From Gilvimarinus sp. DA14 (GTDB lineage Bacteria > Pseudomonadota > Gammaproteobacteria > Pseudomonadales > Cellvibrionaceae), in assembly GCF_024204685.1 (NCBI RefSeq), contig NZ_CP100350.1, positions 2,582,501 to 2,646,500 on the forward strand: a DNA stretch of 64,000 nt, read 5' to 3'. The notes under the pieces are model-generated. The model had not been told where the DNA came from and ran no database searches. It saw only the letters and a list, made by a program, of their open reading frames with translations. A program made the position numbers and the translations under genes. Shown one piece after another: positions 36,560-43,176 of the stretch. The stretch's first letter is position 1. Each line of letters starts with the position of its first letter.

Positions 36560-36576
36560 CCAGCGGTGTGGACAAC

Positions 36577-36598
36577 GGTGTTCAGGAAGAACCTTTTT
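36577..36598 (+). terminator. Weak terminator-like hairpin
   Basis: GG-T-GTTC pairs with GAACC across AGGAA, with a bulged T, followed by TTTTT (36594-36598). It lies just after the acyltransferase gene and separates it from the next operon. Confidence 0.4.
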
Positions 36599-36664
36599 GT
36601 TGCCAAATATCTGTGCAGCCAAGCGGCCCCAGATCGTCGCTGTGGCAAACTTGAGGTGAATACA

Positions 36665-37402
36665 ATGTCAGTGTTTAAAGGGTTGCTCTTGGCGACCTTG
36701 GTAATCGTCACTAGCGGTTGCAGCAATCATTATCGTTTGGTTAAAACCACCGATTTAGAGTCGGTAAATCAGTGCGCCATGGTGTCTGATCACAACCACC
36801 AGCAGCTGCTACTGCAGCAACAAGAACTGGCGGGGGGGATGCAGCAATTGCAAACGGACTTAAATGCCACACGCGAGCAAATTCAAACCCTGGCGCCTGC
36901 GCCGGCACGGTGCCCGGACCCAAGCTACACACCTCCTGTGAGCCAGCCCCAGTCTGTTACCGCTGCCGTAGAGCAGGCCGATAAGCAGATGGTCGGTGCG
37001 CTGGAGCAACTGCGATTTGAAGACCTCTCCATCGATAACCAGGCGCGCATCGATACCGGCATTGCCACCGCCATTTTACCGGTGCGCGACTTACAACCCT
37101 TTGAGCGCAACGGCGAAGCCTGGGTGCGTTTTTTGTTTGTCGCTGACAGTGGCAAAGAGCAGGAAGTGGAGCGCCAAGTAGTACGCCAGGCAAGCCTCAC
37201 GGGCAGTGATAAGCAGCGCCCGGTGGTTCGCTTGCGCTTCACTCTTGGCAGCATCACCCAGCACGGCGAATTTATTTTGACGGAGCGCAAGTCCGACACT
37301 CAGGAGTTGCGCCTGGGTCGCCTGGTGCTGCGCGATGTAATGGTGGTCGACGTCAGCCGCGATAATCTGACGTCTTTGCCTGAACCGCAAGGGGCTAAAT
37401 AA
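36665..37402 (+). CDS. Retropepsin-like (RimB/DUF785-type) lipoprotein
   Basis: 245-aa lipoprotein (signal ending VTSGCS). The C-terminal half is the 'ATP-dependent zinc protease' domain, a retropepsin-like aspartic protease fold: ARIDTGIATAIL with the catalytic D130-T-G, FERNGEAWVRF, RPVVRLRFTLG and LRLGRLVLRDVMVVDVSR. The first half has coiled, Gln-rich sequence. ATG 36665 is chosen over the longer TTG frame at 36566 because it follows GAGGTGA and gives the lipoprotein signal. It overlaps the next gene by 1 nt in the first of two TAATG/TGATG couplings. Confidence 0.85.
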   Translation: MSVFKGLLLATLVIVTSGCSNHYRLVKTTDLESVNQCAMVSDHNHQQLLLQQQELAGGMQQLQTDLNATREQIQTLAPAPARCPDPSYTPPVSQPQSVTAAVEQADKQMVGALEQLRFEDLSIDNQARIDTGIATAILPVRDLQPFERNGEAWVRFLFVADSGKEQEVERQVVRQASLTGSDKQRPVVRLRFTLGSITQHGEFILTERKSDTQELRLGRLVLRDVMVVDVSRDNLTSLPEPQGAK

Positions 37403-38919
37403 TGAAAATGCAGCGCATTCCCTTCTACGCCATGGTGCTTTTGCTGATCGTGGCGGGTTTGGTGACCGCTTGGCTAAGGCACACGACCACCGAAGTACCT
37501 TTTTTGCCAGGTGAGCAAAAACCGGTTTGGCTGGTAGAAGCGCGCATCGACTTTATGGCCACCGGCGGGCAGACGACCGTGCGCCTCGACTTGCCGGATG
37601 ATGCACCTGGGTTTCGCTTAATTCGCGAGCAGGCGGCATCGCCCGGCTATGGCTTTGCGGTATTGGATGATAACCAAAACCGGCGCGCGGAGTGGACCCG
37701 TCGTCAGGTGGCCGGGCCGCAAACGCTTTACTATAACGCCCAGTATCTGCCCACCGGTCAAAATAGCGCGACAACGGATGCCGAAGCGCCCAAAGTGGCG
37801 GAGGTGTTTTGGGACGAGCCAGAGGCAACTGCCGCCAGAGAACTGTTGCGCGGCGCTCTGTCCCGCTCGACCACGCCGGCCAGTACCGCCCGCGAATTGA
37901 TTAAACTGCTCAGCCCCAACTCCCCCGATCAGAACGCGCAATTGTTATTGGTGGCCGAACCACAGCGTTCTCAGTTGTTGGTCAAACTATTAAATCAGGC
38001 CGGCGTGGCGGCGCGCACGGCATTGGGTTTGTACCTGGAAGATGCACGGCGGCGGCAAAGCCTAACCTCGATGGTCGAGCTGTACACAGAAGAGGGATGG
38101 TTGCTGATTAATGCCACCACCGGCGAGCAAGGTGTGCCCGAAAACCTATTGCTCTGGTCGCGGGGGGAAAATGCTCAACTGGACGTGATCGGTGGTCAGA
38201 ACTCGCGTCTGAGTTTTTCCATGATTAAGCAAACCGTTCCCGCTATGGCGCTGTCGCAGGTGCAGTTTCAAGACAACATTTTTAGCATGCTTGGAGTTTA
38301 CAGTCTGCCCATTGAAGAGCAGAGCATGTTCAAGTTGCTTTTTTTGTTGCCCTTAGGGGCGCTGGTGGTGGTGTTTATGCGGGTGATTGTCGGTTTGAGA
38401 ACCGCTGGCACCTTTATGCCTATTCTGATCTCGCTGGCTTTTTTGCAAACCTCTCTCGTGCCCGGCCTGATTAGTTTTATTCTGATCGTTGGGTTTGGCT
38501 TGCTGCTGCGCAATTACTTGTCTTATTTAAACTTATTATTGGTCGCGCGTATTGCCACCTTGATAGTGCTAGTCATATTCCTGATTTCTATCTTGAGTTT
38601 GCTGGGTTATCAAATGGGGTTAAACGCGGGTATTACCGTGACATTCTTCCCTATGATTATTATTGCTTGGACCATCGAGCGTATGAGTATTCTGTGGGAG
38701 GAAGAGGGCGCCCATGAAGTGTTAATTCAGGGTGGCGGTAGTTTGCTAGTGGCGGTAATCGCTTATTTGTTGATGAGCCTAACGGTCGTTAATCATCTCA
38801 GTTTTAATTTTCCGGAATTAAACTTGATTATCCTGGCATTGATTTTAATGATGGGGCAGTACACGGGTTATAAGCTCTCCGAGCTGCGACGTTTCCGTTC
38901 CATGGAGCAGTTTGACTGA
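37402..38919 (+). CDS. Inactive transglutaminase / seven-transmembrane protein (UUP1 type)
   Basis: 505 aa. One N-terminal membrane helix, a periplasmic transglutaminase-like domain (about 30-300) and a C-terminal block of about seven membrane helices (from LFLLPLGALVVVFMRVIVG to LNLIILALILMMG). Proteins of this layout are annotated 'inactive transglutaminase family protein' and accompany a RimK-like ligase and a DUF785 protease. ATG 37402 overlaps the previous stop (TAATG), and its own TGA overlaps the next ATG (TGATG), indicating strict translational coupling. Confidence 0.85.
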   Translation: MKMQRIPFYAMVLLLIVAGLVTAWLRHTTTEVPFLPGEQKPVWLVEARIDFMATGGQTTVRLDLPDDAPGFRLIREQAASPGYGFAVLDDNQNRRAEWTRRQVAGPQTLYYNAQYLPTGQNSATTDAEAPKVAEVFWDEPEATAARELLRGALSRSTTPASTARELIKLLSPNSPDQNAQLLLVAEPQRSQLLVKLLNQAGVAARTALGLYLEDARRRQSLTSMVELYTEEGWLLINATTGEQGVPENLLLWSRGENAQLDVIGGQNSRLSFSMIKQTVPAMALSQVQFQDNIFSMLGVYSLPIEEQSMFKLLFLLPLGALVVVFMRVIVGLRTAGTFMPILISLAFLQTSLVPGLISFILIVGFGLLLRNYLSYLNLLLVARIATLIVLVIFLISILSLLGYQMGLNAGITVTFFPMIIIAWTIERMSILWEEEGAHEVLIQGGGSLLVAVIAYLLMSLTVVNHLSFNFPELNLIILALILMMGQYTGYKLSELRRFRSMEQFD

Positions 38920-39875
38920 TGTTTATCAGCCCTTTCAAACTGCGGCGCCTGGGTATGCTGGGTATGAACTGTCGCAACCGGGACTTTATTGGCCGCTACA
39001 ACGACCGGCGCCTGTATCCGTTAGTGGATAATAAGCTGGAAACAAAGCTGCTGGCGCAAGAGTATCAGGTGGCGACACCGCAACTGCGTTTTGTGGTGAA
39101 AGAACAACACGAAATCTCGCAAATTGAAAAGTCTCTAGATAAGTTGTCCGGCTTTGCTATCAAGCCTGCCAAAGGCTCTGGCGGAAAAGGTATCTGGGTA
39201 ATCATCAAGCGCGACGGTGCCGACTTTATCAAATCCAGTGGAGCGAAAATTACCCTGGAGGATATTCGCCGTCATATGAGTAACACCCTGGCTGGCTTAT
39301 ATTCGCTGGGCGGCGTCAGTGATGAAGTGATCGTTGAGGACTTGATCGAATTTGATGATTGCTTTGACGGCTTTTCGTTTGAAGGGGTACCGGATATTCG
39401 CGTGGTGGTATTTCGCGGTTTTCCGGTCATGGCGATGTTGCGGTTGGCCACCCACGCTTCGGATGGTAAAGCTAATTTACACCAAGGCGCAGTGGGAGTG
39501 GGACTGGATTTGGCCACGGGGCGTTGTTTGAATGCGGTGCAGTTTGGTAAACCTGTTTACCAGCATCCGGATACTAAACGTTCTTTGAAAGAGATTCGAG
39601 TTCCCGACTGGCGTGGCTTGCTGTGCCTTGCATCGCGCTGCTACGACATGACGGGGCTCGGATATATAGGCGCCGACTTGGTGTTGGATGCCAACCGTGG
39701 TCCCGAATTGTTGGAGTTAAACGCGCGCCCCGGCTTGGCCATTCAGGTGGCCAATGGGTTCGGTTTGTTGCCGCGTTTGCGGCATATAGAAAAATTAAAA
39801 GAAAAACACTACCGTACGGCGGAGGCGCGCGTCGATTATGTAATGCAGGAGTTCGCCGCGAAGACTTTGTTATGA
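38919..39875 (+). CDS. Alpha-L-glutamate ligase-like ATP-grasp protein
   Basis: 318 aa, cytoplasmic. ATP-grasp features: GFAIKPAKGSGGKGIWVI (nucleotide-binding loop), DLIEFDDCFDGFSFEGVPDIRVVVFRG and the metal site ELLELNARPGLAIQ. The closest recognisable family is the RimK-like 'alpha-L-glutamate ligase homolog', which adds glutamate to a substrate carboxylate. It is the third gene of the coupled unit. The stop overlaps the stop of the convergent DUF748 gene by 6 bp. Confidence 0.88.
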   Translation: MFISPFKLRRLGMLGMNCRNRDFIGRYNDRRLYPLVDNKLETKLLAQEYQVATPQLRFVVKEQHEISQIEKSLDKLSGFAIKPAKGSGGKGIWVIIKRDGADFIKSSGAKITLEDIRRHMSNTLAGLYSLGGVSDEVIVEDLIEFDDCFDGFSFEGVPDIRVVVFRGFPVMAMLRLATHASDGKANLHQGAVGVGLDLATGRCLNAVQFGKPVYQHPDTKRSLKEIRVPDWRGLLCLASRCYDMTGLGYIGADLVLDANRGPELLELNARPGLAIQVANGFGLLPRLRHIEKLKEKHYRTAEARVDYVMQEFAAKTLL

Positions 39876-41084: not shown

Positions 41085-41528
41085 TTACCAGTACTTCTTT
41101 TCGTCGTGAATAATCCAGCCGTGGGGGTGGCGGGCTTGAGGATCCTTGTGAGTCCAGTGTACCAAGCCGCCTTTAGGGTTCCAGATGTATTCGCCGTAGA
41201 ATTCCACAGGATCACTTACCGCTAGGTTTTCGATACGCGGTGCAATATCAATATTGTGCACAATCAATAAAGAAGTGCCATCGCGAACATGGATAATAAA
41301 GCGTTGATGCTGCGAGCCTTTGGTGTCGTCTGGCAGCAGGCGGGTAACTTCGCCCTTACCGCGCACCTGAATTTCTGTCGTCTGGTTACGCCAGAGTTGC
41401 GCGAAGTTACTTGGTGTATCAGCCTGTTGACAGGCTGAACCCAAAAACGTCAGCAATAACGCGAGACAAAAAATCAGGCCCGAGCGGTCGTTGCGACGGT
41501 GAAGGCTAGCGATCGGACCAGACAGCAA
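41085..41528 (-). CDS. DUF3465 lipoprotein
   Basis: 147 aa with a lipoprotein-like signal (LLLTFLGSACQQ) and a DUF3465 domain: VRGKGEVTRLLPDDTKGSQHQRFIIHVRDGTSLLIVHNIDIAPRI and EFYGEYIWNPKGGLVHWTHKDP. The TTG at 41528 is preferred because GGAGG lies 8 nt upstream; the longer frame to 41615 runs inside the VOC gene. The function of DUF3465 is unknown. It overlaps the VOC gene by about 23 bp. Confidence 0.8.
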   Translation of the reverse strand: MLSGPIASLHRRNDRSGLIFCLALLLTFLGSACQQADTPSNFAQLWRNQTTEIQVRGKGEVTRLLPDDTKGSQHQRFIIHVRDGTSLLIVHNIDIAPRIENLAVSDPVEFYGEYIWNPKGGLVHWTHKDPQARHPHGWIIHDEKKYW

Positions 41529-41859
41529 ATTCGCTGCCTCCAGGCTCGGTAAAGTGGAAGCGTCTGCCGCCGGGAAAGGTGAAAGTGGGTCTGCAGATAG
41601 TGCCGCCTGCAGCAATCACTTCTTTTTCTGTCTGCGCCAGGCTTTCACTGTAAAGCACGATCAGGCAGGAGCTCTGAGCACCGCTAGACACAGTGGCGGA
41701 TAAGTAAAATCCGCCCAAGTTAAAGCCGGAGTCAAAGGCGCAGTACTCGGCGCCGTAGTCGGTGAAGCTCCAGTGAAAAACGCGGGTGAAAAATTCTTTG
41801 CTTGCGCTCAGTGAACGCGAAGGGATTTCCAGGTAGGGGGCTTGCTGTGAGTCGATCAT
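41506..41859 (-). CDS. VOC-family (glyoxalase-fold) protein
   Basis: 117-aa single-domain VOC protein: begins YLEIPSRSLSASKEFFTRVFHWSFTDYG, ends FPGGRRFHFTEPGGSEFAVWSDR, with paired beta-alpha-beta-beta-beta units. Members of this fold range from dioxygenases to resistance proteins, so the reaction cannot be assigned. Confidence 0.85.
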   Translation of the reverse strand: MIDSQQAPYLEIPSRSLSASKEFFTRVFHWSFTDYGAEYCAFDSGFNLGGFYLSATVSSGAQSSCLIVLYSESLAQTEKEVIAAGGTICRPTFTFPGGRRFHFTEPGGSEFAVWSDR

Positions 41860-41899: not shown

Positions 41900-42454
41900 T
41901 TAGATGCGCATTTTGCGGCGCAAAATGGTCAGGCCCAGTGCCAGTGAACAGGCCAGTGAACCCAATAACGCGTAGAGGGTAACATTCGAGGCGGTAGAAG
42001 GCAGAGCGGTGTAAGCCACTTCTTCCTCAACTGCTTCTGGCTCGTGTGGCATATCGTCAACGCTGGCGACAATGGCGAAGCGGTCGGTGGGGATAAACAA
42101 TTCCAGAGTAGAGTCGCGCGTCAGCGTGTGAATGCTGTGCTTGCGGCCGTCAATATCAATCTGGAAGTGCGGTGGCAGGTTTTTGGTTTGATAGGTTTCA
42201 CCGTAGCTACCGTCTTGGTGTTTAAACTGCAAACGAACCTGATCACCCGCAGAGCGTATATATTTGGCGTCCAGTTCTACGTATTCGCGACCGTTCATTT
42301 CCACGACACCCATACAGGCGTCGGCAATTTCAGGGTATTCGTTGAGTACCCCGGGCTTCCAATCGATTTCCGAGCATTCCTTTGCCATTGCCGCTGAACT
42401 GGCAACAAGTGCAACTCCCAAAGTGGCTGTTTTGATACAAGTAGAGATCTTCAT
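41900..42454 (-). CDS. Putative sortase substrate with LPSTA tail
   Basis: 184 aa. A signal peptide (MKISTCIKTATLGVALVASSAAMA) exports the protein; the mature part has three cysteines and beta-rich sequence with no family I know. The C-terminus has the three-part sorting signal of surface proteins: LPSTA at residues 151-155, a hydrophobic helix (LYALLGSLACSLALGLTIL) and a basic tail RRKMRI. The class D sortase gene lies 14 bp upstream on the same strand, so this is its likely dedicated substrate. ATG 42454 is preferred over 42460 because AAGGA then has proper spacing. Confidence 0.8.
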   Translation of the reverse strand: MKISTCIKTATLGVALVASSAAMAKECSEIDWKPGVLNEYPEIADACMGVVEMNGREYVELDAKYIRSAGDQVRLQFKHQDGSYGETYQTKNLPPHFQIDIDGRKHSIHTLTRDSTLELFIPTDRFAIVASVDDMPHEPEAVEEEVAYTALPSTASNVTLYALLGSLACSLALGLTILRRKMRI

Positions 42455-42468
42455 AGTCATTTCCTTTT

Positions 42469-43176
42469 TTAATGAAGTGTTGCAGGTGAGTTTTCTGTGG
42501 CCGTTACGATAAATCGCTCCGGTGCACTTCCAACATGGTAGAACGGGTAGCAGGTAATCAGGGTTAGCTGATTGTGCTCGGTGGGGGCGAGCACACTGAC
42601 ATTTGAGGGCAAGACGATTTGCAGTTCAGTGACCGTGTAGCTTTTTTCTCCCTCAAGCGTTGTCACATCAATGCGATCTCCAATTTCGATATCTTTAAGA
42701 ACCCGGAAGAAACTGTCTCTGTGTCCGGCGATAGCGATATTGCCGCCACCGGTAACGGGCGCTGTCTTATCCAGCCAGCCCAGGCCGCGGTTTAAGTTGT
42801 GGTCTGTCGGCTCGGTGAAAATGGGTGCGCTCAGGCCCAGCGTATCGATTTCCAGTACTGCGATGATATCGTCACTTGCAGGGGCGATGGCGCTGAACTG
42901 TTCGATGCGTTTGGGGCTCCACAGGCTGGTATCAATATCCCCAGGGGCAGTCAGAGGAGGGTTTGTCGATACGGAAGTTTCGGTGGTCGTTGCGCTTGCC
43001 GCCTGGGCACGGGCCAGAAATAAATCCGTCTGCCGTTCGGCCATCGGACCTTGGCGCAGCATTTGGGTGCCCCACACGCAGAGCAATGCAATGCCCAAAA
43101 GCCAGAGGCTGGTTTCGACAAAGCGACACAAAGCTGAGACTAATTTCACACGACCCATTGCAGTTTCAGTATCCAT
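42469..43176 (-). CDS. Class D-like sortase
   Basis: 235-aa membrane-anchored transpeptidase. The N-terminal helix (LWLLGIALLCVWG) is followed by the sortase beta-barrel. The catalytic histidine is in AIAGHRDSFF, the catalytic cysteine in LTLITCYPFYHVG, and the arginine in SAPERFIV. TLxTCYPF and the YHVGSAPERF tail are typical of class D sortases, which favour LPxTA-type signals; the next gene encodes an LPSTA protein. Sortases are uncommon in Gram-negatives, which lack the thick wall that usually serves as acceptor. Confidence 0.88.
   Translation of the reverse strand: MDTETAMGRVKLVSALCRFVETSLWLLGIALLCVWGTQMLRQGPMAERQTDLFLARAQAASATTTETSVSTNPPLTAPGDIDTSLWSPKRIEQFSAIAPASDDIIAVLEIDTLGLSAPIFTEPTDHNLNRGLGWLDKTAPVTGGGNIAIAGHRDSFFRVLKDIEIGDRIDVTTLEGEKSYTVTELQIVLPSNVSVLAPTEHNQLTLITCYPFYHVGSAPERFIVTATENSPATLH

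Follow-up and report, generated by a model that had tools for sequence, protein, structure and literature searches.

The window (the 64,000-nucleotide stretch analyzed here, from the genome of Gilvimarinus sp. DA14, a marine Gram-negative bacterium) encodes a sortase together with a small secreted protein that ends in an LPSTA-type sorting signal, and this sortase belongs to a clade of gammaproteobacterial enzymes that, as judged by sequence comparison, is separate from the known Gram-negative class GN. We propose, with slightly better than even confidence, that the two genes form a self-contained sortase unit with which a diderm cell would fix a small domain to its thin periplasmic peptidoglycan. 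A more far-reaching version, in which the pair is a movable two-gene unit representing an unnamed, separate class of gammaproteobacterial sortases and covalently places a family-specific, disulfide-bonded beta domain on the diaminopimelate (DAP) of periplasmic peptidoglycan, beside the class GN system, is put forward tentatively, as something short of an even chance. No description of the pair was found in the open-access literature searched, where most subscription papers are absent.

The sortase gene (42469..43176, minus strand) encodes a protein of 235 aa, delimited by the ORF table and by its matches to PF04203 and to curated models, which is laid out as a short N-terminus, one predicted N-terminal membrane helix, a linker, and the sortase catalytic domain. 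A sequence-only reading of this DNA had reported both open reading frames and the sortase motifs AGHRD, TLITCYPF and APERF; the two frames lie at the positions it gave, and the motifs are present. The His/Cys/Arg triad is intact and in the expected order: the codons for His152 (42721..42723), Cys209 of TCYPF (42550..42552) and Arg221 of APERF (42514..42516) are on the minus strand, and each residue is invariant in 16/16 aligned relatives. PF04203 (Sortase; E 1.2e-28; 99.8 bits, cut-off 26.6) and TIGR01076 (72.1 bits, cut-off 39.35) both score above their thresholds, and the protein belongs to the sortase superfamily, with a predicted transpeptidase activity. Its closest sequence match among solved structures is PDB 2LN7 (E 2.7e-14), the title of which names B. 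anthracis SrtD, and it also matches two unnamed PHROGs (best 7e-14).

For an AlphaFold model of the sortase (mean pLDDT 69), the best 50 of 138 PDB matches at E <= 0.001 are all sortases; class C enzymes are frequent among the top matches to this predicted structure, and the first match is one of them. Along with a class C model match of 73.9 bits, this would speak for an enzyme that polymerizes its substrate into a fiber through isopeptide bonds to lysine, as class C pilin sortases do. That outcome appears very improbable, given that the class C cut-off is 160 bits, that there is no second signal-bearing gene among the window ORFs, and that the best lysine column in the alignment of two-cysteine (type-1) substrates is filled in 7/21; with a conserved pilin-type lysine absent, pilin-type polymerization was rejected.

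Downstream of the sortase, a probable ribosome-binding site for the substrate gene, AAGGAA (42461..42466, minus strand, read from the sequence), sits 6 nt before the second of two candidate start codons (ATG 42454), the likelier start. Counted from this codon, the gap between the two genes is 14 bp, as had been reported; from the first ATG it is 8 bp. A promoter and terminator scan returned nothing above chance.

The substrate precursor (41900..42460, minus strand) is 186 aa long, or 184 aa if translation begins at the likelier start, 42454. It begins with a putative signal peptide (residues 1-26; 42383..42460, minus strand, read from the sequence), which ends in SSAAMA and has no visible lipobox; A26 is invariant in the substrate alignment (15 rows). 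The signal peptide is followed by a mature, beta-rich domain and an acidic linker (42005..42382, minus strand, from the alignment and the predicted model), by the sorting motif LPSTA (41990..42004, minus strand), with a predicted cut between Thr156 and Ala157, and by the remainder of the sorting signal, a membrane helix with the basic tail RRKMRI (41903..41989, minus strand, from the filter described below and the alignment). The motif reads LPSTAS in the C-terminal signal, and its P, T, and A are invariant in 15/15 aligned partners. Where the sequence-only reading had counted three cysteines in the mature domain, there are only two (C29 and C49); these are invariant in 21/21 aligned type-1 substrates and may form a disulfide, while the further cysteines of the precursor, one in the C-terminal helix and one in the signal peptide, both lie outside the mature part.

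A simple sorting-signal filter (motif, hydrophobic helix and basic tail) was passed by the substrate alone among 92 window ORFs, counting closed ORFs of at least 100 aa within the window, and by 13 of 200,000 shuffles of the substrate's own 50-residue tail. The curated anchor models score below their cut-offs on this protein (TIGR01167, 15.5 bits against 15.9; NF058670, 12.3 against 32; PF00746, 13.7 against 20), and it is by the filter and the alignment that a motif, membrane helix and basic tail are recognized at the C-terminus of a secreted protein. The earlier claim that a sortase of a Gram-negative bacterium has its own, dedicated substrate of the LPxTA type is supported.

For the mature domain, scans of the 15 members of the substrate alignment against Pfam and NCBIfam yielded nothing but weak matches to anchor models or matches attributable to chance, three substrates gave no match in PHROGs, and a sequence search of solved structures gave no match of worth for the type-1 mature domain. 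The predicted model (mean pLDDT 77, from six input sequences) has two short helices and seven strands, and a Foldseek search with it returned nothing at E <= 0.001. Small barrels (aIF5A, CusF) are among the best, non-significant matches to this model, and, because no structural match reaches that threshold, the small-barrel reading is treated as a hint only. The conserved residues of the domain look structural, not catalytic, and a binding or structural role may be suggested for it.

The genome of this organism is a single contig of 3.96 Mb, and when all of it was searched with a profile of the substrate tails, the window substrate scored E 1.9e-14, and the only other matches, at three places, had E 0.28, 0.31, and 1.9; this profile was built partly from the window substrate gene and misses the class GN target, so that the search covers the LPSTA-type signal only. 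With that restriction to the LPSTA-type signal, the earlier proposal of one enzyme and one substrate holds for the window genome. A second sortase of the genome (L002:1453-2229, minus strand) scores 178.3 bits on TIGR03784 (cut-off 158.25) and is thus assigned to class GN. It overlaps a VWA-type neighbor (L002:2087-3334, minus strand; both at ~C1:2021.5-2023.3 kb), an ORF that begins close to the end of its locus and matches TIGR03788 at 451.2 bits, short of the cut-off of 551.65. The cell thus combines two sortase systems, the class D-like pair of the window and the class GN enzyme with its VWA-type neighbor.

Class GN (TIGR03784) is described as a dedicated Gram-negative sortase whose target is encoded in the adjacent gene (PMC3237569), and, with reference to this class, the role of sortases in Gram-negative organisms has been called unknown (PMC10581121). 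As this is the known Gram-negative kind of sortase, and its model matches the window sortase at 81.4 bits, the pair might be considered another member of the class GN/VWA-target system, a view to which we give almost no weight. The score falls below the cut-off of 158.25, which is exceeded by the genome's own GN enzyme, with its own VWA-type neighbor, and by two further GN controls (L014, 201.1; L018, 219.8), and the window partner (186 aa) has no VIT/VWA (TIGR03788) match in the curated-model scan. Gene order differs as well, in that the gene upstream of 59 of 75 GN-like sortases encodes a signal-bearing protein of 353-493 aa (one of these 59 loci also has a chance-looking downstream match), with none found for the other 16. 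When 18 clade members and 25 class GN sequences were placed in one tree, the two groups separated at 100/99, with a bootstrap that is not fully settled and long branches that include L003, L013, and L038. As far as profiles and trees can decide the matter, scores, gene order and tree together refute class GN membership. Of the 11 family genomes with a class D-like sortase, 9 show one or more additional matches that are GN-like.

The sequence-only reading had proposed a neighborhood search in other gammaproteobacteria, and in such a search the pair recurs: an adjacent protein of the [LM]Px[TS]A-TM-Arg kind is found for 24/25 distinct clade sortases (23 downstream and 1 upstream, at L040; loci L142 and L143 duplicate L033 and L034 and are not counted), and these 25 are not independent because they come partly from one genus. 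The adjacent partners are 172-247 aa long and end in [LM]Px[TS]A[STG]. Among sortases first met after the pairing rule was formed, 7/7 have a partner, six with the Thr form of the motif and one with LPDSAS. The sortase without an adjacent substrate is that of genome G003, where the LPDSAS form was first met, in a protein ~23 kb away on the same contig; Ser replaces Thr in this way in two substrates, L121 and L150. When 11 other genomes were searched with the tail profile, the partner was the top match in 10 of them and, in the remaining one, the distant protein of G003 was, and, as most of those partners were in the profile, the informative part of this result is that no other place scored better than E 0.0158. 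Across the 144 genomes of the family, the type-1 substrate domain occurs in 9, all of them among the 11 that have a clade sortase, and the remaining two (G999 and G1094) have type-2 partners; 5 of these 11 genomes are in one genus, and few genomes were sampled.

The distribution of the clade was surveyed with a profile of 16 clade sortases, and the scores obtained fall into two groups. In the phylum sample (398 genomes), 37 matched, with two above 297 bits (the window genome and one congener) and the rest at or below 96.6; in the class sample (369 genomes), 55 matched, with two above 270 bits and the rest at or below 94.3; and in the family (144 genomes), 87 matched, with 11 at 180.6 bits or more and the rest at or below 86.4. 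For the order sample (244 genomes), NF058671 was used as the query and loci were examined for the best matches only; 55 genomes matched, and at least 11 of them hold clade members, with at least 12 sortases. The closest named relative of the window sortase is from Gilvimarinus chinensis (83% identity), and the named relatives are G. chinensis and G. xylanilyticus. A contig scan with one sequence as the query gave at least six loci, which include one of an Erysipelotrichaceae. One genome, G221, has two separate clade pairs (L104:2140-3323 and L003:1309-2688), with the signals MPKTAS and LPTTAS. Among plasmid records, 40 match the sortase; the best 12 of the 40 are from Bacillota or Streptomyces, and the tallies add Rhizobium (7), Novosphingobium (3), and Phyllobacterium (2). 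As none of these matches covers more than 80% of the sortase, plasmid carriage of the clade is not supported.

The sequence-only reading had also assigned the sortase to class D, which can be retained only in part. Class D models are the top-scoring models in 19/19 clade sortases scanned singly, but the window sortase falls below both cut-offs (NF058671, 120 against 140; NF033746, 110.5 against 165), and within the clade the former cut-off is passed by 1/19 (L003, 145.2 against 140) and the latter by 0/19. A second tree omitted L003 and L013 and combined 16 clade rows with eight other sortases, namely four annotated as class D, two of class C, one of class A, and one unclassified. In it the clade stands apart at 94/92, while the deeper branches (51/38) do not separate a position nearer class D from one nearer GN or the others. 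Since class D models score best, their cut-offs are mostly missed and placement in the tree is weak, we refer to the clade as class D-like, not class D; it is a sortase group that the Pfam and NCBIfam models used do not name as such.

The mature domain of the substrate is not fixed in the clade. The two-cysteine type 1 accounts for 21/24 adjacent partners, whereas the adjacent partners at L040, L149, and L150 carry a different domain with no cysteine in the mature part (type 2, found also in the distant L121). A profile comparison of the two types (hhalign) gave 94.4% for whole proteins, with the shared sorting signal included, and a probability of 19.8% for the mature parts only, after a rough signal-peptide cut that truncated the window row and left L150 with its signal peptide; with the mature parts alone at that level, homology of the type-1 and type-2 domains is not claimed. 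The type-2 protein of L149 matches DUF5666 at 2.5e-4, below the DUF5666 cut-off. This match, along with the non-significant small-barrel matches of the type-1 fold, recalls the DUF5666/CusF-like small periplasmic barrels, from which the window protein differs in that its mature domain has neither a Pfam match nor a structural match at the threshold given above.

In genome G991, the substrate gene is followed by a tandem paralogue of the type-1 domain (L145:2081-2536, plus strand), the ORF of which is without a sorting signal and which may be either a soluble form or a decayed copy. Such a paralogue would fit a sortase that acts mainly as a processing protease, with water taking the acyl group and a soluble periplasmic domain being released, as would the very small size of the substrate, which would work as a free protein. 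In sortases generally, transpeptidation resolves the acyl-enzyme much more rapidly than hydrolysis does, which argues against such a role, and a signal peptide alone would yield a soluble protein, making the sorting signal pointless. We regard the processing role as unlikely, and take transpeptidation to be the probable outcome.

We propose the standard sortase reaction for the pair, with which its intact triad, predicted membrane topology and tripartite signal agree. The substrate would be exported by Sec and its signal peptide removed. Its C-terminal helix, secured by the Arg/Lys tail, would then keep it in the inner membrane, and LPSTA would lie at the periplasmic face. There the sortase, anchored by its N-terminal helix, would attack the Thr-Ala bond through Cys209, assisted by His152 and Arg221, forming a thioester with the new C-terminal Thr that is then transferred to an amine. 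The likeliest amine would be the side chain of meso-diaminopimelate in lipid II or in the peptidoglycan stem peptide, and the end product would be a small beta domain, presumably with a disulfide, that an acidic tether links to the thin peptidoglycan layer of the periplasm. Sequence evidence establishes the gene pair with its triad and three-part signal, the repeated pairing and co-occurrence, and the distinctness from class GN; topology, cut site, transfer to an amine in preference to hydrolysis, the acceptor, the disulfide and the role of the domain are inferred.

The sequence-only reading had left open what the substrate could be linked to, on the grounds that Gram-negative cells lack the thick wall normally used as the acceptor. 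The window genome encodes a MurE (524.9 bits) that carries the DNPR motif, which we take to mark the meso-DAP-adding enzyme. Gram-negative peptidoglycan carries the meso-diaminopimelate amine, the one used by SrtA of B. anthracis (PMC7759979), and this amine should therefore be on hand in the periplasm, which weakens the concern. The peptidoglycan of B. anthracis is of the directly cross-linked meso-DAP kind, and there the acceptor to which SrtA couples proteins is the meso-DAP amine of lipid II; on the class D enzyme of this organism, the statement is limited to the attachment of two proteins (PMC7759979). Peptidoglycan as the acceptor is argued from chemistry alone, and we judge it to have a little more than an even chance of being correct.

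The genomic site is consistent with a unit that comes and goes. In the window and in G. chinensis alike, trkH precedes the pair and a DUF3465-like ORF follows it (the G. chinensis neighbors were identified by eye). In three Gilvimarinus genomes of the family sample, the only sortase match is GN-like, and the site is empty in 3/3 Gilvimarinus genomes without a clade sortase: the next ORF after trkH is glyoxalase-like in two of these congeners, at a distance of ~44 and ~37 bp, and DUF3465-like in the third, at ~52 bp, with gaps computed by hand from coordinates and ORFs identified by eye through their resemblance to those of the window. The corresponding interval in the window is 1505 bp and contains the pair. 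Directly after the pair, the window has a glyoxalase-like ORF and a DUF3465 ORF (41085-41859, minus strand), and, because one or both follow trkH in the three pair-less congeners, they belong to the site and not to the unit. The congener G057 has two further genes between trkH and the pair, and in other lineages the neighbors beyond the pair differ (ORFs identified by eye); given this variation, only the sortase and substrate genes are seen traveling together. Beside the site, the window encodes (36566-39875, plus strand) a secreted protein, a membrane protein, and an ATP-grasp protein of the sugar-transfer type (PF14397, 2.3e-91).

The composition of this unit bears on whether the acceptor could instead be an amine on an outer-membrane lipid, a polysaccharide, or an envelope protein, which would place the substrate at the outer membrane or the cell surface. 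Type IX secretion offers a Gram-negative precedent, in which glycolipid anchors hold other proteins at the outer membrane (PMC7468200), and no evidence of peptidoglycan binding was found in this analysis. No transport, glycan or lipid genes are seen traveling with the pair, among neighbor ORFs identified by eye, and a two-gene unit without an exporter suggests a periplasmic end point. We therefore consider attachment outside the peptidoglycan to be a minority possibility, at roughly one chance in five, and retain peptidoglycan as the favored acceptor. If this is correct, the pair represents sortase-made wall anchoring inside a diderm periplasm. It is also the simplest case of its kind, with one enzyme, one small substrate, no co-traveling neighbor seen and a clean presence/absence site, and because the unit is simple, the site clean, and the relatives named, the question of the Gram-negative acceptor becomes directly testable. 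In addition, the pair contributes a substrate domain that matches nothing in the copies of Pfam and NCBIfam used.

Among known systems, the pair is like class D of Bacillota (NF033746, NF058671; B. anthracis SrtD/SrtC, 2LN7) in its best-scoring models and top structural sequence match, and in the LPxTA-type signal (LPSTA in the window) on the cognate substrate. It is unlike class D in the missed cut-offs, in that the clade does not demonstrably nest with the four annotated class D enzymes, and in its diderm host and different substrate domain. Class D sortases are regarded as LPXTA-specific (PMC5148588), and the signal type of the pair agrees with this; the SrtD of B. anthracis prefers LPNTA, and a class D enzyme of C. 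perfringens prefers LPQTGS (PMC4498605), and, given these differing preferences, class alone does not fix the motif. With class GN, the clade shares a Gram-negative host, an adjacent dedicated target, a TM helix with a basic tail, and an xPxTA core; it differs in its smaller substrate (172-247 aa), which is without a VWA domain and is encoded downstream in 23/24. The exosortase/PEP-CTERM and rhombosortase/GlyGly-CTERM systems, as described in PMC1569441 and PMC3237569, likewise combine a Gram-negative C-terminal tripartite signal with a dedicated enzyme, but their enzymes and motifs are unrelated, the window enzyme being a true sortase.

A Gram-positive parallel to the window pair is found on two Priestia plasmids (L136:393-1650 and L137:391-1575), where an annotated class D sortase lies beside a small LPETASN or LPKTATN protein. 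The term LPXTATN occurs in a Gram-positive paper (PMC3617157). The small Priestia proteins have a weak match to the Excalibur domain (E 1.4 and 0.31, below cut-off).
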